Source of the DNA: Xanthomonas sacchari
GTDB taxonomy: Bacteria > Pseudomonadota > Gammaproteobacteria > Xanthomonadales > Xanthomonadaceae
Assembly (NCBI RefSeq): GCF_024266585.1
Contig: NZ_CP100647.1
Span: 4,135,001-4,199,000, forward strand
DNA length: 64,000 bases
Direction: 5' to 3'
Shown: positions 6,758-63,359 of the stretch, piece by piece
How the letters are laid out: every line of letters begins with the position of its first letter
Position numbering within the stretch: the stretch's first letter is position 1
Made by a program: the position numbers and the translations under genes
Notes under the pieces: model-generated
Seen by the model: the letters and a program-made list of their open reading frames with translations, nothing else
The model's database searches: none
What the model was told of the DNA's origin: nothing

Positions 6758-7227
6758 CCCGCAACGATGTCCTCGCCGCGCGCATCCTGATCGTCGACGA
6801 CGAACCGACCAACGTCCGCCTGCTGGAGGAACTGCTGCAGCGCGAGGGCTTCCGCCAGGTGGTGGCGACCACCGACCCGCAGCGGGTGCTGGGCCTGGTG
6901 GCGGCGTTCGCGCCGGACCTGATCCTGCTCGACCTGATGATGCCGGAGCTGGACGGCTACGCGATCCTGGAGCAACTGGCGCGGCTGGCCGGCCCGTCCA
7001 GCTTCCTGCCGGTGATCGTGCTCACCGCCGATCCCAGCCGCAGCGCCCGCCACCGCGCCCTCGGCCTGGGCGCCAAGGACTTCCTGACCAAGCCGCTGGA
7101 CACCTTCGAGGTGGCCCTGCGGGTCTGGAACGTGGCCGAGACCGTGGTGCTGTTCAAGCGCCTGCGCGCCCTGGCCGTGGCGGATGCCGTGCCGCCTGGG
7201 TGGTTGAGGGCCGGGATTGGGGATTAG
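6754..7227 (+). CDS. Stand-alone receiver-domain response regulator
   Basis: The product is 157 residues: a single receiver domain with ILIVDDEPTN, phospho-acceptor Asp60 in LLDLMMPELDGY, the LTAD switch and Lys113 in LTKPLD. About 25 further residues follow, with no output domain. It may be a phosphotransfer intermediate, or a CheY-like effector of the hybrid kinase whose stop codon it overlaps. The last residues and the TAG stop (7225-7227) are encoded inside a GGGATTGGGGATTAG repeat, so the native end has probably been replaced by repeat sequence. Confidence 0.9.
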   Translation: MTRNDVLAARILIVDDEPTNVRLLEELLQREGFRQVVATTDPQRVLGLVAAFAPDLILLDLMMPELDGYAILEQLARLAGPSSFLPVIVLTADPSRSARHRALGLGAKDFLTKPLDTFEVALRVWNVAETVVLFKRLRALAVADAVPPGWLRAGIGD

Positions 7228-7299
7228 GGATTGGGGATTGGCAAAAGCGGGGCGCTGCCGTTGCGAATCCCCAATCCCGACTCCCCAATCCCGGCCCCC
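7210..7299. repeat. Inverted GGGATT-type repeat pair between convergent genes
   Basis: Several GGGATTGGGGATT heptamers (7211-7249) face the complementary series AATCCCCAATCCCGACTCCCCAATCCC (7264-7293). The region can fold as a long hairpin and lies between the convergent receiver and DUF2007 genes. It may act as a bidirectional terminator. Confidence 0.75.
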
Positions 7300-7302
7300 A
7301 AG

Positions 7303-28224: not shown

Positions 28225-29205
28225 ATGCGCCCCTCGCTCGCGCTGGTGCCGGGCGAGCCGGGCGGGATCGGCCCGGAGCTGTGCGTGCGGCTGGCGCAAC
28301 AGCCGCGGCACGACTGCCAGCTCCTGGCCTTCGCCGATCCCGACACCTTGCGCGCCGCTGCCGCGGCGCTGTCGCTGCCGCTGCGGCTGCTGCCCGAATC
28401 CAGTCCCGCCCTCGCCCCTGGCGACCTGCGCCTGCGCACGGTCGCCAATGCCGTGCCCAGCCGCTTCGGCGCGACCGAACCGGCCAATGCCGCGGCGGTG
28501 ATCGCCGCGCTGACCCAGGCCGCCGACGCCTGCCTGCGCGGCGAACTGGCCGGCATGGTCACCGGCCCGGTGCACAAGGCCGCGATCAACGCCGGCGGCA
28601 TCGCCTACACCGGCACCACCGAATTGCTGGCGCAGCATGCCGGCCGCGACGTGGTGATGATGCTGGCCAACGCCATCGTGCGGGTGGCCCTGGTCACCAC
28701 CCATCTGCCGCTGCGCGCGGTCGCCGATGCGCTCACGCCGGCCCTGCTGGAACGCAGCCTGCGCATCACCGACGCCGCGCTGCGCCGCGACTTCGGCATC
28801 GCCGCGCCGACCATCGCGGTGCTGGGGCTGAACCCGCATGCCGGCGAGGACGGCCACCTGGGCCACGAAGAAATCCAGGTGATGCAACCGGTGCTGGACG
28901 CCTTGCGCGCGGAAGGCATGCAACTGCTCGGCCCGCTGCCGGCCGATACCGCGTTCCTGCCGCAGAAGCTGGCGGGCGTGGACGCGGTGCTGGCGATGTA
29001 CCACGACCAGGGCCTGCCGGTGCTCAAGTACAGCGGGTTCGAGCAGGCGGTGAACCTGACCCTGGGCCTGCCCTACCCGCGCGTGGCGGTCGACCACGGC
29101 ACCGCGCTGGACCTGGCCGGCCGCGGCGTGGCCGACCCGTCCAGCCTGTTCGCCGCCACCGCGCTGTGCGCGCAACTGGCCGCACGCCGCGCGCAGGCGC
29201 CGTAG
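28225..29205 (+). CDS. pdxA: 4-hydroxythreonine-4-phosphate dehydrogenase PdxA
   Basis: PdxA makes the aminoacetone phosphate precursor of pyridoxal phosphate. The 326-residue product has the substrate motif GEPGGIGPE, the metal-binding TTHLPLRAVADALT, the HAGEDGHLGHEE loop and YHDQGLPVLKY. The stop TAG (29203-29205) is formed by the GTAG head of a REP element, so the last codons and the stop have been shaped by the repeat. It precedes rsmA. Confidence 0.95.
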   Translation: MRPSLALVPGEPGGIGPELCVRLAQQPRHDCQLLAFADPDTLRAAAAALSLPLRLLPESSPALAPGDLRLRTVANAVPSRFGATEPANAAAVIAALTQAADACLRGELAGMVTGPVHKAAINAGGIAYTGTTELLAQHAGRDVVMMLANAIVRVALVTTHLPLRAVADALTPALLERSLRITDAALRRDFGIAAPTIAVLGLNPHAGEDGHLGHEEIQVMQPVLDALRAEGMQLLGPLPADTAFLPQKLAGVDAVLAMYHDQGLPVLKYSGFEQAVNLTLGLPYPRVAVDHGTALDLAGRGVADPSSLFAATALCAQLAARRAQAP

Positions 29206-31860: not shown

Positions 31861-32439
31861 CTACGCCGCGCCAGAACGGCGCCGGTAATCCACGAATTCG
31901 AACGCCAGCGCATGCCGCGCATCGGCCGGATGCGCTTGCCGCGCCACCACGTCCCACTGCGCCGGATCGAACACGGGGAAATGCGCATCGGCGCCCTCGA
32001 CCACGGTCTCGACGTGGCTGAGGTACAGCCGCTCGGCCAGCGGCAGGGCCAGCGCGAAGATGTCGCCGCCGCCGATCACCGCCAGCTCCGTGGCACCGGC
32101 CTCGCGCGCCGCCTCGATCGCCGCCGGCAGCGACGCCACCGGCCGCATGTCCGCGAACGGCACCTGCCCCGAGCGGGTCATCACCAGGTTCAAGCGCCCG
32201 GGCAGCGCGCGCCCCAGCGACTGCGCGGTCTTGCGCCCCATCAGCACCGGCTTGCCCAGGGTCAGCGCCTTGAACCGTTTGAGATCGTCCGGCAAGCGCC
32301 ACGGCAGGTCGTTGTCGCGGCCGATGGCATTGGCCTGGTCCAGCGCCGCGATCAGGCTCAGCCGCAGCGCGGGGCGCGTAGACGGCGACGCATCCGTCCG
32401 CGCCGCGACGGCGGCGCTTGCCGATTCCCGATTCCCCAT
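31861..32439 (-). CDS. folA: Dihydrofolate reductase
   Basis: DHFR reduces dihydrofolate to tetrahydrofolate with NADPH, restoring the cofactor used by ThyA. The 192-residue product has the core LSLIAALDQANAIGRDNDLPWRLPDD (split here as LSLIAALDQ and IGRDNDLPW), the LMGRKTAQSLG loop and VIGGGDIFALAL. Typical chromosomal DHFR is about 160-170 residues, so there is an extra N-terminal segment of about 27. The only in-frame ATG (32437-32439) lies inside a GGGAATC repeat. No start occurs between it and the core, so the repeat supplies the initiation codon. It is 20 bases downstream of thyA. Confidence 0.9.
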   Translation of the reverse strand: MGNRESASAAVAARTDASPSTRPALRLSLIAALDQANAIGRDNDLPWRLPDDLKRFKALTLGKPVLMGRKTAQSLGRALPGRLNLVMTRSGQVPFADMRPVASLPAAIEAAREAGATELAVIGGGDIFALALPLAERLYLSHVETVVEGADAHFPVFDPAQWDVVARQAHPADARHALAFEFVDYRRRSGAA

Positions 32440-32453
32440 TCCCGATTCCCGGC
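32424..32453. repeat. GGGAATC-type repeat at the folA start
   Basis: Four heptamer-like units of CCGATTCCCG/ATTCCCCATTCCC lie between thyA and folA. Read on the minus strand, they encode the folA start codon and its first residues. Confidence 0.8.
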
Positions 32454-32459
32454 TGCCAC

Positions 32460-33254
32460 TCACACCGCCACCGGCGCCTTGATCGCCGGATGCGGGTCGT
32501 AGCCCTCGATGGCGATGTCGTCGTAGGTGAAGGCGAACAGATCGGTGACCGCCGGGTTCAGCCGCAACCGCGGCAACGGCCGCGGCGCGCGCGCCAGCTG
32601 CTCGCGCGCCTGTGCGAAGTGGTTGGAATACAGGTGCGCATCGCCCAGCGTGTGCACGAAATCGCCCACGCCCAGGCCGGTGGCCTGCGCCACCATGTGC
32701 GTCAGCAGCGCGTAGCTGGCGATGTTGAACGGCACGCCGAGGAAGATGTCGCCGCTGCGCTGGTAAAGCTGGCAACTGAGCTTGCCGTCGACCACGTAGA
32801 ACTGGAACAGGCTGTGGCACGGCATCAGCGCCATCTGCGGCAACTCGGCCACGTTCCAGGCGCTGACCACCAGCCGCCGCGAGTCCGGGTTGCGCTTGAT
32901 CTCGTCCACCAGCCACTGCATCTGGTCGATCTCGCGCCCGTCCGCGCCGGTCCAGCGCCGCCACTGCTTGCCGTACACCGGGCCGAGTTCGCCCTGCGCA
33001 TCGGCCCACTCGTCCCAGATGCTGACCTTGTTGTCCTTGAGATAGGCGATGTTGGTCTCGCCCTTCAGGAACCACAGCAGCTCGTGCACGATCGAGCGCA
33101 GGTGCAGCTTCTTGGTGGTGACCAAGGGGAAGCCGTCGTTGAGGTCGAAGCGCATCTGCCAGCCGAACACGCTGCGCGTGCCGGTGCCGGTGCGGTCGGC
33201 TTTCTGCGCACCGTGCTCGAGCACGTGCTGCAGCAACTCCAGGTATTGCTTCAC
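32460..33254 (-). CDS. thyA: Thymidylate synthase
   Basis: ThyA methylates dUMP to dTMP with methylene-tetrahydrofolate, producing dihydrofolate that FolA recycles. The 264-residue product has the same length as E. coli ThyA. It has the nucleotide-binding [14 protein letters not shown], the catalytic Cys146 in [12 protein letters not shown], and the folate-site [14 protein letters not shown]. It starts at GTG 33254, overlapping the lgt stop by 4 bases (GTGA), so translation is coupled. Confidence 0.97.
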
Positions 33255-34159
33255 TTGGCCACCTCCGCCGGCGGCACCGGCTGCAGCACCGGCGCGCTGC
33301 GCGAGCGCCACAGCAGGAACACGCCCAACAGGATCAGCGGAATGCTCAACTGCTGGCCGCGGGTCAGCCAATGGAACGCCAGGTAGCCCAGCTGCGCGTC
33401 CGGCACGCGCACGAACTCCACGGCGAAGCGGAACACGCCGTACAGCAGCGCGAACAGACCGGACACCGCATAGCGCGCCCGCGGCTTCATCGAGAAGGTC
33501 CACAGCACCACGAACATCACCAATCCTTCCAACGCCGCTTCGTACAGCTGCGACGGATGGCGGGCGTAGCGGTCCAGCAGCCCCGCGGCGTACTGCTGCT
33601 GCAGTTGCGCAGTGCTCATCAGGCTCTCCAGCGCCGGCGCGTTGGCCACGCCGTCCTGCACCGGTGCGTGCGGGAAGATCACGCCCCAGCCGGCGTGGGT
33701 CAACTTACCCCACAACTCGCCGCCGACGAAATTGCCGATGCGGCCGAAGCCCAAGCCCAGTGGCACCAGCGGCGCGACGAAATCAACGGTGTCGAAGAAA
33801 TGCAGGCGCGCCTTGCGCGTCCACCACAGGCAGGCCGCCAGCACGCCCAGCAGGCCGCCGTGGAAGCTCATGCCGCCGTCCCACACCTTGAAGATCAGCA
33901 GCGGGTTGGCCAGGAAATCGGACAACGCGTAGAACAGCATGTAGCCGATGCGTCCGCCCAGCACCACGCCGAGCATCGCGTAGAACAGCAGGTCGGAGAA
34001 GCCCTCCTCGTTCACCCCGGGCAGGCGACCGGCGCGGATGCGGCGGCGGCCCAGCCACCAGGCCGACACGAAGCCCGCCAGGTACATCAGCCCGTACCAA
34101 TGCACCTTCACCGGCCCGAACGAGAAGGCGATGGGATCGATCTGGTGGAGATAGGTCAT
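33251..34159 (-). CDS. lgt: Prolipoprotein diacylglyceryl transferase
   Basis: Lgt transfers diacylglycerol to the lipobox cysteine of prolipoproteins at the inner membrane. The 302-residue product has about seven transmembrane helices, the Lgt signature [13 protein letters not shown] (about 145-160) and [15 protein letters not shown] 34159 was chosen because the canonical N-terminus ([16 protein letters not shown]) follows. It heads the lgt-thyA-folA operon. Confidence 0.96.
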
Positions 34160-34210
34160 GCGGGAGCGTCGGCCGGGGGGCGAAGGTCGCCTATTCTGCC
34201 ACCGACTCCA

Positions 34211-34345
34211 CCGATTACCGCGATTGCGGCCCCTCCCACGGCATGGCGCTTCATCTGCTGGCAGGCGCACGCGCCTGCCGCAGACTCCGCCGATTACCGC
34301 GATTGCGGGCCCTTGTGCGGCATGGCGCTTCACTTGCGGAAGCGG
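34211..34345. repeat. Imperfect 79-bp tandem repeat
   Basis: CCGATTACCGCGATTGCGG recurs at 34211 and 34290, followed in both by a GGCATGGCGCTTCA block. The copies differ at about ten positions. They lie between lgt and the 127-bp array. Confidence 0.7.
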
Positions 34346-34352
34346 CGCAGGT

Positions 34353-35103
34353 GACCTCCGGGCCATGAGCCGCGACGCGCAGCGCCATATGGCCCAACCG
34401 GGCACTGTCGCGTCGGGACCGAAGTCCCTCCCACAACACCACCGCATCGCGCCAATGCAGGAGCGGCCACTGCCCCAATGTGGGAGCGGCTTCAGCCGCG
34501 ACGCGCACTGCCATCAGGCCCCAACCCGGCCCTATCGCGTCGGGACTGAAGTCCCTCCCACAACCCCACCGCATCGCGCCAATGCAGGAGCGGCCACTGC
34601 CCCAATGTAGGAGCGGCTTCAGCCGCGACGCGCACTGCCATCAGGCCCCAACCCGGCACGCTCGCGTCGGGACTGAAGTCCCTCCCACAACACCACCGCA
34701 TCGCGCCAATGCAGGAGCGGCCACTGCCCCAATGTAGGAGCGGCTTCAGCCGCGACGCGCACCGCCATCAGGCCCCAACCCGGCACGCTCGTGTCGGGAC
34801 TGAAGTCCCTCCCACAATGCCACCGCATCGCGCCAATACAGGAGCGGCCAGCGCCCCAATGTGGGAGCGGCTTCAGCCGCGACGCGCACCGCCATCAGGC
34901 CCCAACCCGGCACGCTCGCGTCGGGACTGAAGTCCCTCCCACAACGCCACCGCATCGCACCGATGCGGGAGCCGCCAGCGCCCCAATGTGGGAGCGGCTT
35001 CAGCCGCGACGCGCACCGCCATCAGGCTCCAATCCGGCACGCTCGCGTCGGGACTGAAGTCCCTCCCACAATGCCACCGCATCGCACCGATGCGGGAGCA
35101 GCG
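34353..35103. repeat. Tandem array of 127-bp units built from inverted REP elements
   Basis: Complete units start at 34480, 34607, 34734 and 34861, exactly 127 bp apart, with a nearly complete fifth at 34988-35103 and a degenerate one from about 34353. Each unit holds a GTAG/GTGG REP (GGAGCGGCTTCAGCCGC) and, about 60 bp on, an inverted REP (GTCGGGACTGAAGTCCCTCCCAC), plus a CATCGCGCCAATGCAGGAG link. Units differ at a few positions. 127 is not a multiple of 3, so no protein frame persists. There are no unique spacers, so it is not CRISPR. Confidence 0.92.
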
Positions 35104-35184
35104 CCTCCGGTGTCCACAGCCTCGACCACGGCAAGACGCTGCATCCCATCTGCCGGCCAGGCGAACCCAGCGTCGCCGCTTACC
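35104..35184. other. Gap after the array, nothing recognised
   Basis: 81 bases between the array and the first TPM-domain gene show no gene or repeat. Confidence 0.4.
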
Positions 35185-35676
35185 TCAATCCAGCACCTGC
35201 GGCAGGTTCGGCAGCTCGTTCTCGCCCTGCTGTCCCGGCTGCGCAGGGAAGTGCGCGGCCAGCAGCGCCGAGACCGCGCCGACGCCGGCGATCACCGCCT
35301 GCTCAGGCTGGCCCGCGCGCATGTCGCGCTCGATCAGTGCGCAGACCTGGCGCCACTGCGCCGCGTCCACGCGCCCGTGCAGACCGCGGTCGGCCACGAT
35401 CTCGATATGGTGGTCGGCCAGCAGCAGGTAGATCAGCACGCCGTTGTTGGCTTCGGTGTCCCAGGTGCGCAACTGCGCGAAGGCCTGTTCGGCACGCAAC
35501 CGCGGCGCCATGCCGCGCAGCACCTGCGCCGGCGCCAGGCCCGATTCCACCGCAAACATCACCTGCCCGCGATGCAGCCGCTCGCCCGCGGCGATCGCCG
35601 CGCCGATGCGCTCCAGGCTGGCCGCCGGGAACAGCCGCTGCGCCGAGGGCGCGAACAGGTGCCGGAGCAGGCGCAT
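35185..35676 (-). CDS. Small TPM-domain protein
   Basis: The product is 163 residues. It contains a TPM-like (DUF477) fold without a signal peptide: VMFAVESGLAPAQVLRG, then TEANNGVLIYLLLADHHIEIVADRGLHGRV and a C-terminal VCALIERDMRAGQPEQAVIAG helix. TPM proteins pair with LemA and with longer membrane TPM proteins. The gene starts one base into the stop of the larger TPM gene (TGATG), so the three form the lemA-TPM-TPM operon. The activity is unknown. Confidence 0.82.
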   Translation of the reverse strand: MRLLRHLFAPSAQRLFPAASLERIGAAIAAGERLHRGQVMFAVESGLAPAQVLRGMAPRLRAEQAFAQLRTWDTEANNGVLIYLLLADHHIEIVADRGLHGRVDAAQWRQVCALIERDMRAGQPEQAVIAGVGAVSALLAAHFPAQPGQQGENELPNLPQVLD

Positions 35677-36668
35677 CACCAGCTCCCCGAGGCGCCGCCG
35701 CCTCCGGAACTGCCACCGCCTCCACCCCAGCCGCCTCCGCCGAAGCCGCCACCTCCACCGCCCCCCCAACTGCCGCCACCGCCGCCCCAGCCACCGCCGA
35801 AGCCGCCGCCGCCCCACCCTCCACCGCCCCATCCGCCACCGCCGGCCGAGCGGCCCGGCGAAATCCCGACGAACAGGCCCAGGATCAGGCCGATCGCACC
35901 GGTCAGCGCACCGACGAGCAGCGACAGGCTCAGCACCAGGCCGACGCCACCGCCGACCACCCCGCTCAGCACGCCGCGCACCGGGCGCGACAGCCGCGCG
36001 AACAGCACCTGCGCGACCAGCGCCGCGAACAGACCGGCGAAGAACCCGAATCCCAGACCGCCGCCGCGCGACGCCGGGGCATGCGCACTGACCGGCGCCG
36101 GCAGCGCCTCGCCGTCGATCAGCTTGACCAGCATCGCGGTCGCCTCGGCGATGCCGCCGCTGTAGTCGCCGGCGCGGAAGCGCGGCACCAGGTACTCCTG
36201 GATGATGCGGTTGGCGGTGGCGTCGGGAATCGCGCCTTCCAAACCATAGCCAGGCTGGATGCGCACGCGCCGGTCGTCCTTGGCCACCACCAGCAGCACG
36301 CCGTCGTCCACGCCCTTGCGGCCGAGCTTCCACTGGTCGAACACGCGCTGGGTGTACTGCTCGATGCTCTCCGGGGCGGTGCTGGGCACCACCAGCACCT
36401 GCAACTGGCTGCCCTTGCGCTGCTGCAGCTGCACCGCCTGCCGATCCAGTTCCAGGCGCTGGTTCGGGGTCAGCGTGCCGGTGGTATCGACCACCGGCGC
36501 ATCCAGCGGCGGGATCGGCGCCTCGGCCTGTGCCCAGGCCAGCCAGGGCAGCAGCGCCAACAGCAGCAGCCACACGCAGGCGCGCCGCCGGCCACGCGCA
36601 GGGCGGGCGCTGCCGCGCGACGCCGTCGCTGCGGCAGCGCCCTCAGCCGCCACGGAAGTCGAATGCAC
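35676..36668 (-). CDS. TPM-domain membrane protein with Gly/Trp-rich tail (YgcG-like)
   Basis: The product is 330 residues. The N-terminal hydrophobic segment (about 31-47, VWLLLLALLPWLAWAQ) is a signal peptide. The TPM domain (about 55-190) includes DTTGTLTPNQRLELD, GVDDGVLLVVAKDDRRVRIQPG and AIPDATANRIIQEYLVP. Two or three transmembrane helices follow (about 205-265). The last 60 residues are almost only Gly, Trp and Ser. The start GTG 36668 is uncertain; GTG further in at the hydrophobic stretch is possible. It follows lemA by 24 bases. Confidence 0.85.
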   Translation of the reverse strand: MHSTSVAAEGAAAATASRGSARPARGRRRACVWLLLLALLPWLAWAQAEAPIPPLDAPVVDTTGTLTPNQRLELDRQAVQLQQRKGSQLQVLVVPSTAPESIEQYTQRVFDQWKLGRKGVDDGVLLVVAKDDRRVRIQPGYGLEGAIPDATANRIIQEYLVPRFRAGDYSGGIAEATAMLVKLIDGEALPAPVSAHAPASRGGGLGFGFFAGLFAALVAQVLFARLSRPVRGVLSGVVGGGVGLVLSLSLLVGALTGAIGLILGLFVGISPGRSAGGGGWGGGGWGGGGFGGGWGGGGGSWGGGGGGGFGGGGWGGGGGSSGGGGASGSW

Positions 36669-36692: not shown

Positions 36693-37325
36693 TTACTGCG
36701 CCGGCGCCGGTGGTTGCGTCTGCCGCGGCGCGGGCGCCGGCTGGCCGCCGAAGTTCACCGCCGGCGCCTCGGAGATCTGCGCCTCGTTCTCCACCGAGAA
36801 GTTGGGCTTTTCCTTGTAGCCGAACAGCTTGGCGGTGATCACCTGCGGGAACGACAGGATGTAGGTGTTGTAGTCCTGCACCGCCTGGATGTAGCGGCCG
36901 CGCGCCACGGTAATGCGGTTTTCGGTGCCTTCCAGCTGCGCCTGCAGGTCGCGGAAGGCCTGGTCGGATTTCAGGTTCGGGTAGTTCTCGCTGACCACCA
37001 GCAGCCGCGACAGCGCGCTGGAGAGCCGGCCCTGGGCCTGCTGGAACTGCTGCAGCGAGGCGGCGTCGTCGGCGTTGACCTGCACCTGGCCGACGCGGGC
37101 GCGGGCGTTGGTCACGTCGGTCAGTACCTGCCGCTCCTGGTCGGCATAGCCCTTGACCGTGTTGACCAGGTTCGGCACCAGGTCGGCGCGGCGCTTGTAC
37201 TGGTTCAGCACTTCCGACCAGCCGGCCTTGACCGCCTGGTCCTTCTGCTGGATGGCGTTGTAGCCGCAGCCGGACAGCAATACGGCCAGCGCGGCCAGGA
37301 ACAGGGAGCGGGACAACAGGCGCAT
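36693..37325 (-). CDS. lemA: LemA family lipoprotein
   Basis: The product is 210 residues. A signal peptide ends in the lipobox LLSGC (Cys20). The long helical LemA domain has NAIQQKDQAVKAGWSEVLNQ, RRADLVPNLVNTVKGYA, and SALSRLLVVSENYPNLKSD. The tail is Pro/Ala-rich. LemA proteins are membrane-associated and form an operon with TPM proteins. The precise role is not known. It is the first gene of the three. Confidence 0.9.
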   Translation of the reverse strand: MRLLSRSLFLAALAVLLSGCGYNAIQQKDQAVKAGWSEVLNQYKRRADLVPNLVNTVKGYADQERQVLTDVTNARARVGQVQVNADDAASLQQFQQAQGRLSSALSRLLVVSENYPNLKSDQAFRDLQAQLEGTENRITVARGRYIQAVQDYNTYILSFPQVITAKLFGYKEKPNFSVENEAQISEAPAVNFGGQPAPAPRQTQPPAPAQ

Positions 37326-53490: not shown

Positions 53491-53893
53491 TCTTTCACCG
53501 AGTCGGCACCCGCCGCATCTGCGCACGCCGCCAGCGCTGGGCTTGCGCGAGAACCAAGCGCCTTGCGGCCCGGCACGCCGGGCCGCTGCAAGACGCGGAC
53601 GTCGCCCCCGCGGGCTTGCCACCATCGGCGGCACGCACCACCAACGGCGATCGGCGCACCACGACGCATCCCCAATCCCCAATCCCCAATCCCCAATCCC
53701 CAATCCCCAATCCCGAATCCCGAATCCCGAATCCCGAATCCCGAATCCCGAATCCCGGCACCAAGCATATGCCGGTTGCGTATAAGCACCATCCGAATCG
53801 TTGCTTCGGCGCGCGCCGGACGCGGCCTAGAGTGGGCATGGACGCCGCATGCCGGAGCCGTGGCGTCGCATCCTTCGCAGACGAGACCGCAGC
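53491..53893. repeat. Gap holding a 12-unit heptamer array
   Basis: CCCCAAT repeated six times and then CCCGAAT six times fill 53670-53753, in perfect register. The complementary strand reads ATTGGGG and ATTCGGG, with regular G runs. The rest of the gap is GC-rich without a gene. No promoter is obvious before the dioxygenase gene. Confidence 0.8.
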
Positions 53894-63145: not shown

Positions 63146-63359
63146 GGCAACTCCTCCTGCTGAGCGAACCCGCGGCATGGCCGGGGACGGCCACACAGTG
63201 TAGCGGTGCCGCCCGGCATCGCCCCGCCAGCGGCAGGGCCCCCGCTCTTGCGAATCCCCAATCCCGAATCCCCAATCCCCGACTGAACACGCCTCGCCTT
63301 GCCGGCCGTCACCCCCTGCACTAGGCTTCCCGTCTTTGGTCGGGGACCCGGGGACGCAG
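63146..63359. repeat. Intergenic region with GGGATT-type repeat
   Basis: CGAATCCCCAATCCCGAATC and a further CCCAATCCCC lie at 63251-63280. No other feature is seen. It separates the divergent aldo/keto reductase and nupC genes. Confidence 0.6.

Follow-up and report, generated by a model that had tools for sequence, protein, structure and literature searches.

Tandem arrays of paired repetitive extragenic palindromic (REP) sequences have been described as bacterial interspersed mosaic elements (BIMEs) or as clusters of REP doublets forming hairpins (REPINs) (PMC2817692, PMC3733652, PMC3116915, PMC8266576). Here, we analyzed a 64,000-nucleotide stretch of the Xanthomonas sacchari genome (contig NZ_CP100647.1, positions 4,135,001 to 4,199,000; referred to as the window), in which an array of 127-bp units, each holding two inverted REPs, lies between lgt and two TPM-domain genes in a genome that has lost the REP-associated tyrosine transposase (RAYT, TnpA-REP) of its relatives. 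The closest described elements are the BIMEs of Stenotrophomonas, together with the rayt-BIME association of Xanthomonas (Nunvar et al. 2010, PMC2817692). As in our array, their modules, repeated head to tail, each combine two inter-REP segments with two or more inverted REPs headed by GTRG, and some of them are hybrid BIMEs with two REP types. However, the stems of our A and B REPs, which have a CTTCAG loop, do not occur among those which the accessible part of that paper lists for X. campestris and X. axonopodis pv. citri, our host has no cognate RAYT, and the same part reports no homology of inter-REP segments, whereas some arrays of our genome share such segments.

The REPIN clusters and GI-GIII tandem arrays of Pseudomonas fluorescens SBW25 (Bertels and Rainey 2011, PMC3116915) include ordered arrays alternating two REP types, as ours does, but SBW25 retains its RAYTs, and its REP sequences and spacings are other than those found here. 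Among the GTAG REP clusters (Di Nocera et al. 2013, PMC3733652), dimers are tandemly reiterated with flanking DNA of variable length and stem subfamilies carry complementary changes, both of which apply to our locus; GTAG-1 of X. campestris is reported to be largely clustered, and the accessible part of that report names neither our REP set nor our site. The SMAG clusters of S. maltophilia (Roscetto et al. 2008, PMC2613905) are likewise head-to-tail palindromic repeats, whose count at a locus varies and which have been used for typing, while the variation at our site is shown between species only. Escherichia coli BIME-2 (PMC2817692, PMC8266576) forms two-REP-type mosaics, with a RAYT gene delimited by both types, and differs from our array in its REP sequences and linkers. 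None of the titles and abstracts listed by our literature searches concerned these A/B REPs or this site, which is no proof of absence.

Tandem Repeats Finder (TRF) placed the array at 34368-35099, with a period of 127 bp, 5.8 copies, 94% matches, and no indels, and the repeat-finder copies were spaced by 127, 127, 127, 127, and 127 bp. The array consists of five full units, starting at 34480, 34607, 34734, 34861, and 34988, and one decayed unit starting at 34353, all arranged head to tail on the plus strand:

Unit 1, 34353-34479, plus strand: decayed; A REP eroded; B REP at 34412-34434 (minus) with one mismatch
Unit 2, 34480-34606, plus strand: A REP at 34480-34502 (plus), B REP at 34539-34561 (minus), 45-bp linker
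Unit 3, 34607-34733, plus strand: A REP at 34607-34629 (plus), B REP at 34666-34688 (minus), linker
Unit 4, 34734-34860, plus strand: A REP at 34734-34756 (plus), B REP at 34793-34815 (minus), linker
Unit 5, 34861-34987, plus strand: A REP at 34861-34883 (plus), B REP at 34920-34942 (minus), linker
Unit 6, 34988-35099, plus strand: A REP at 34988-35010 (plus), B REP at 35047-35069 (minus); linker shortened at the array end

Each unit carries a type A REP on the plus strand (GTRGGAGCGGCTTCAGCCGCGAC) and a type B REP on the minus strand (GTGGGAGGGACTTCAGTCCCGAC) with the heads outward; the two REPs are 59 bp apart from start to start and make an 82-bp pair in all, after which the 45-bp linker follows. 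The B REP of the array units is GGGACTGAAGTCCC, as described in the earlier note, which had also correctly recognized the five units at 127-bp spacing, the decayed first unit, and the head-to-tail repetition of two inverted REPs of different subtypes. Its wording of "exact" 127-bp units is right for the period and does not hold for the sequences, since the full units differ from each other at 5 to 21 of 127 bases (the 21 including the shortened linker of the last unit). With an inverted two-REP module repeated head to tail and separated by linkers, the array is a BIME or REPIN cluster, and as such it is ordinary for REP-rich gammaproteobacteria.

A 28-base A-REP pattern, allowing up to three mismatches, matched the window six times (five in the array and one at 29202) and 100 shuffled sequences not at all, so these matches are not due to chance. 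Two base pairs distinguish the stem of A from that of B. Because these two variable pairs stay Watson-Crick in 342 and 337 of 353 REPs (from the window and the genome samples described below), the REP subtypes are compensated stem variants, whose four combinations we call A, B, C, and D. The predicted single-strand folding energy of the units is -49 to -72 kcal/mol per 127 nucleotides, computed without a shuffle comparison. Regular spacing and palindromes might also suggest a coding repeat, a CRISPR-like array, or a small-RNA gene family, which we consider very improbable: 127 is not a multiple of 3, 22 array periods show no preference modulo 3 (9, 7, and 6, with four TRF rows that gave an array again at another period excluded), and the linkers are themselves repeated instead of being unique spacers between identical repeats. 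In addition, 33000-36000 contained no Rfam match at E 0.1, and 34100-35250 contained no promoter- or terminator-like site. A function as cruciforms or hairpin RNAs, suggested in the earlier note, is hypothetical, with strong predicted folding on one side and these negative scans on the other.

The genome (G000; G001 to G019 are the others of a 20-genome genus set, and L-numbers denote fetched loci) is a single contig of 4.889 Mb in which REPs are abundant, at more than 100 copies. At up to one mismatch there are 342 + 342 REP places, with none for a reversed control pattern, and the exact REPs number 163 of type A (GTAG form) and 171 of type B, the latter being the highest B count of the 20 genomes. 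Of 41 loci, comprising 40 chosen from REP matches, a choice that favors arrays, plus the window's own locus, 21 contained tandem arrays, whose periods span 102-318 bp. These arrays, together with the published BIMEs and REPIN clusters, contradict the earlier view that tandem amplification of a REP pair is unusual. Helical phasing of the array periods was rejected, since a Rayleigh test of 22 periods gave p values between 0.32 and 0.95 at 10 to 11 bp. The 45-bp linker of our array, with REPs masked, had no match at E 0.001 in 60 other fetched loci of this genome, some of them overlapping. Elsewhere, at L146, L147, L161, and L172, array linkers or interiors are alike between distant loci (76-96% over 24-70 bases in the rows printed), and some REP array units may have moved there as larger pieces. 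When exact matches are counted across the whole chromosome, heterotypic outward pairs of the A/B or C/B kind also favor one strand, with 27 on plus versus 2 on minus; this lean amounts to 12 sites versus 2 and is partly an effect of exact matching, as there are further reverse-oriented sites whose REPs contain mismatches.

To compare the same site in relatives, the 20 genus genomes (one per species) were located by an lgt query, and REPs at the site were called at up to four mismatches. The TPM 3' end lies beside lgt in 18 of them and was not found so in G001 and G012; the lgt-TPM intergenic interval ranges from 135 to 1025 bp across the 17 genomes measured. G009 has two B and two A REPs (about 2 units) with the same 59/68-bp spacing as our array, and G011 has one intact A, one intact B, and one decayed B REP (1-2 units). 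An A/A pair 43-45 bp apart occupies the site in G006, G007, G008, and G010, one A REP whose partner has a deletion occupies it in G013, and no REP was found in 12 of the 20 genomes. The unit copy number, which the earlier note had proposed to compare, therefore differs at the same site between species (5+1, about 2, 1-2, and 0 units), as in a variable-number tandem repeat. Among the named records found, from which very near ones are possibly omitted, our Lgt is closest (97%) to those of Xanthomonas sp. NCPPB 1128 and F10. When 11 of 80 named loci fetched around lgt were inspected, A/B-type REPs near lgt (up to three mismatches) were present in four, NCPPB 1128, F10, X. bonasiae, and strain AmX2, all of them early-branching Xanthomonas, and absent from the other seven, which represent six other Xanthomonas species and one Lysobacterales metagenome-assembled genome.

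The divergence of the units indicates how the array grew. Identity between adjacent units is 96% for units 2 and 3, 94% for 3 and 4, 94% for 4 and 5, 88% for 5 and 6, and 85% for 1 and 2, and it falls with distance; that neighboring units are the most alike is the usual mark of stepwise tandem duplication. The exact period and the linker common to the units speak against independent insertion of each REP, and the differing periods of the other arrays in this genome are as local duplication would give. Both carrier relatives, G009 and G011, keep this unit with its 59/68-bp REP spacing in fewer copies. As the leftmost unit is decayed in all three carrier species (G000, G009, and G011), the ancestor presumably had at least two units. 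Units 2-5 share 91-96% identity with each other, 82-87% with unit 2 of G009, and 72-76% with unit 2 of G011, which fits growth or homogenization of the inner units on the branch of our species. We consider it likelier that they multiplied there than that gene conversion acted together with unit loss in G009 and G011.

On the whole, we think it quite probable that the array is a BIME-type cluster which grew from an ancestral heterotypic pair by stepwise local duplication, with growth or homogenization of the inner units and loss of the RAYT, and that it is close to neutral. The A/B pair (heads outward, 82 bp) would have sat between the TPM genes and lgt in an ancestor of this Xanthomonas sub-clade, as suggested by the two carrier relatives. 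Stepwise head-to-tail repetition of the pair and 45 bp of adjoining DNA would then have followed, with slippage during replication or unequal recombination among the units as the likeliest cause. From unit divergence, inner units 2-5 would have arisen, or been homogenized, on the branch of our species, and on the same branch the cognate RAYT would have been lost, before or after this inner growth. The array would now probably be near-neutral 3' DNA, and any effect it has would come from hairpins in the TPM 3' transcript or from DNA structure.

Several points weigh against this history. Recent growth is not visible in the outer units: unit 6 shares 83-88% and unit 1 shares 81-86% with units 2-5, no more than unit 2 of G009 does; as judged from divergence, both are older or less homogenized than units 2-5. 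Conversion among units, combined with unit loss in G009 and G011, would give much the same pattern. The linkers and interiors shared among L146, L147, L161, and L172 mean that local duplication is not the sole process in this genome. Moreover, the lgt tree splits the three carriers, grouping G000 with G006 and G007, G009 with G013, and G011 with G010, with moderate support (bootstrap 84-93, SH-aLRT 59-94, none at the strong-support mark); because the carriers are not a clade in it, one has to postulate that the site was lost or replaced in G006, G007, G010, and G013, or else exchanged. Near-neutrality is itself an assumption.

The earlier note attributed such elements to RAYTs and suggested a genome-wide search for them. 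The Y1_Tnp search of our genome (E up to 1) gave one match, L009, which scores 58.9 bits, below the cut-off of 80 for the REP-associated family NF047646 (the RAYT of G009 scores 125.9 bits), and no REP was found in its 3.3-kb locus at up to five mismatches. By eye, short repeats near this gene resemble integron attC sites. With the G009 RAYT as query, strong relatives (E <= 7.3e-61) were found in 17 of the 20 genomes and none in G000, G001, and G012. All 17 lie at a single locus, with matches to the left flank in 16, to the right flank in 16, and to one or both in every case. REPs, called at up to four mismatches, flank the gene on both sides in 13 (A/A in 4, C/B or B/C in 7, B/B in 2) and on one side in the other 4 (G003, G008, G014, and G017), all of type A. 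Our genome keeps both flanks of this locus at 94 and 96% identity, and between them (G000 67862-69301, in L219) lies 1.44 kb of DNA with a low GC content (45%) and open reading frames of 297 and 77 amino acids; this DNA has no REP and no match to the 17 RAYT loci, and its reading frames have no Pfam match. The RAYT is gone from our genome, its locus is taken by other DNA, and no resident cognate RAYT can act on the array now. The RAYT idea thus finds partial support: the relatives carry a REP-flanked gene, but the host of the array has, by these searches, only L009 and no REP-flanked cognate RAYT of the REPIN-RAYT kind.

It is possible, though on the unlikely side, that the RAYT itself amplified the array before the gene was lost, by cutting and rejoining at REPs, and that the array is its fossil. 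The conserved locus with REPs on both sides in most carriers fits this account, as do the heterotypic REPs around seven of the 17 RAYT genes, since heterotypic pairs prevail in arrays. Exact A or B REPs are lacking in the other two RAYT-less genomes, G001 and G012, and the short-pair REPs of G000 are not clearly more decayed than those of RAYT-bearing G009 (12/30 versus 11/22 exact), so the loss could be recent. However, stepwise likeness of neighbors and a shared linker are the marks of ordinary tandem duplication, none of the 17 RAYTs is flanked by A/B, and array density has no simple link to RAYT type: alternating triples number 31 in G000, 6 to 21 in six relatives, and 0 to 104 over the 20 genomes, as counted by a pattern that detects only gaps of 22-50 and 20-50 bases. 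Stepwise local duplication remains the reading we prefer. Strains devoid of a cognate rayt have been reported to hold about ten times fewer REPs (Nunvar et al., PMC2817692, as far as the accessible part states); our genome runs against that trend, perhaps as its RAYT loss is recent.

Three simpler relations found no support. RAYT loss as a cause of more arrays was not borne out, because the 31 triples of G000 exceed those of G006, G007, G009, G010, G011, and G013 (6 to 21) yet fall below the 62 to 104 of G002, G014, G016, G017, and G018. Nor was the RAYT flank type borne out as a predictor of REP abundance, as G002 and G018 have C/B-flanked RAYTs yet 418 and 525 exact A REPs. Faster REP decay without RAYT was not supported by the shares of exact REPs in short outward pairs, which further include 20/22 in G017, 12/16 in G018, and 15/20 in G014. 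Separately, of 31 Y1_Tnp matches in G019, 21 score between 114 and 117 bits; this genome has very few exact REPs, 19 of type A and 2 of type B.

Whether the two REPs of a pair are alike was examined without selection of loci, in 20-kb stretches taken at even spacing, 20 per genome, from G000, G017, and G009; once a pattern was seen, G018 and G014 were sampled likewise as a repeat test. REPs were called at up to four mismatches and clustered at gaps of up to 260 bp. In the five genomes plus the window, isolated outward pairs were homotypic in 52 of 56, whereas clusters of at least four REPs, classified by the majority of their outward pairs, were heterotypic in 15 of 22, homotypic in 6, and tied in 1 (G009, L280); Fisher's p was 4e-8 without the tie and 1e-7 with the tie as homotypic. 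Clusters lacking an outward pair were excluded (13 two-REP clusters, 3 triples, and 1 larger cluster), as were 41 single REPs; the 7 triples with an outward pair were 3 homotypic and 4 heterotypic. Counted pairwise, 44 of 55 pairs in larger clusters were heterotypic, and random pairing would give a homotypic share of 27-59%. The split held in the repeat test alone (homotypic in 20/22 isolated pairs versus 2/7 clusters, p 0.003), without the window and with the tie as heterotypic (47/51 versus 6/21, p 1.2e-7), and at 2 or 1 mismatches (p 9e-6 and 2e-5). Start-to-start spacing of outward pairs also differed, being 39-47 bp in 58 of 66 homotypic and 54-63 bp in 37 of 52 heterotypic pairs. Speaking against the split, larger clusters divide 3 to 3 in the G000 sample, and G014 has 1 heterotypic to 2 homotypic. 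SBW25 has homotypic REPINs and ordered two-type arrays but also 16 tandem REPIN clusters (PMC3116915, in the portion available), so the rule is not absolute. In G017 (L242) and G018 (L299 and L300), we observed arrays that cycle three or four REP subtypes in fixed order (e.g., A, B, C, D).

One explanation of this split would be that repeated, near-perfect long palindromes are unstable, so that homotypic pairs spread singly via RAYT and heterotypic ones repeat by RAYT-free recombination. In three genomes plus the window, matching between the arms over their outer 30 bases is 87% for isolated homotypic pairs (n = 32) and 64% for heterotypic pairs from larger clusters (n = 24); with such mismatched arms, heterotypic pairs could not form one perfect long hairpin, and tandem repetition would become possible. 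Palindrome instability would be the cause in this reading, which we regard as rather doubtful, somewhat more so because the sample from our own genome splits 3 to 3.

Pfam matches place the array between lgt and the TPM/lemA genes, in agreement with the earlier note:

33251-34159, minus strand: lgt (PF01790, 257.2 bits; TIGR00544, 251.5 bits), downstream of the array in the direction of transcription
35185-35685 and 35676-36668, minus strand: two TPM-domain genes (PF04536, 38.8 and 139 bits), with the array beyond the 3' end of the second
36693-37325, minus strand: LemA gene (Pfam)

The array is thus extragenic and, because all these genes are on the minus strand, follows a TPM gene at its 3' end and precedes lgt at its 5' end, between two genes of the same direction. 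REPs are usually placed downstream of genes. In the samples, with home-made gene calls and after removal of three clusters at stretch ends (2 with two REPs and 1 larger), two-REP clusters lay in convergent gaps in 38 of 67 cases and in divergent gaps in 0 of 67 (background, 169 and 213 of 907 gaps of at least 100 bp), and clusters of at least four REPs lay in 13 convergent and 2 divergent gaps of 22; called genes contained 4 single REPs and no larger cluster. This placement, the position of the array 3' of a TPM gene, and the strong predicted folding of its units could mean that selection keeps the array, as a row of 3' hairpins that would stabilize or end the TPM transcript and shield lgt from read-through, or as a gyrase or nucleoid site. 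We find this unlikely, as 17 of the 20 genomes show a different REP pair or none here, no terminator-like site or known RNA family was found in the ranges given above, and promoter avoidance alone would yield the same REP placement.

Other repeats were noticed in the window. Beside lgt, at 34196-34337, there is a separate 79-81 bp direct repeat, which is not a REP and has a palindrome of about 22 bp by eye; it is present here as two diverged copies (84% over 63 bases) and, by TRF, at 2.0 to 5.8 copies in 13 of 13 other genus intervals examined (of 19 other genomes). Heptamer-based tandem repeats, with up to 12.9 copies of ATCCCGA, occur at 53668-53757, 7213-7241, 7264-7301, 32421-32451, and 63251-63279, and resemble the quadruplex-forming GGGNATC repeats that the accessible part of one report describes in Xanthomonas (PMC4692102).

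Two results deserve note: the closely similar inner units of an array whose host genome has had its RAYT replaced, and the split, shown in pooled samples, between homotypic single pairs and mostly heterotypic clusters. Our species has 6 copies of a unit of which one relative has about 2 and another 1-2, and in our genome the RAYT locus is occupied by other DNA; this comparison may separate the spread of REPs, which is thought to depend on RAYT, from local array growth, which may be RAYT-free. Homotypic isolated pairs and mostly heterotypic clusters over five genomes amount to a simple rule that can be applied to other genera, and our genome, with no RAYT, closely similar units inside its array, and more exact B REPs than any other of the 20, would lend itself to testing the palindrome explanation.
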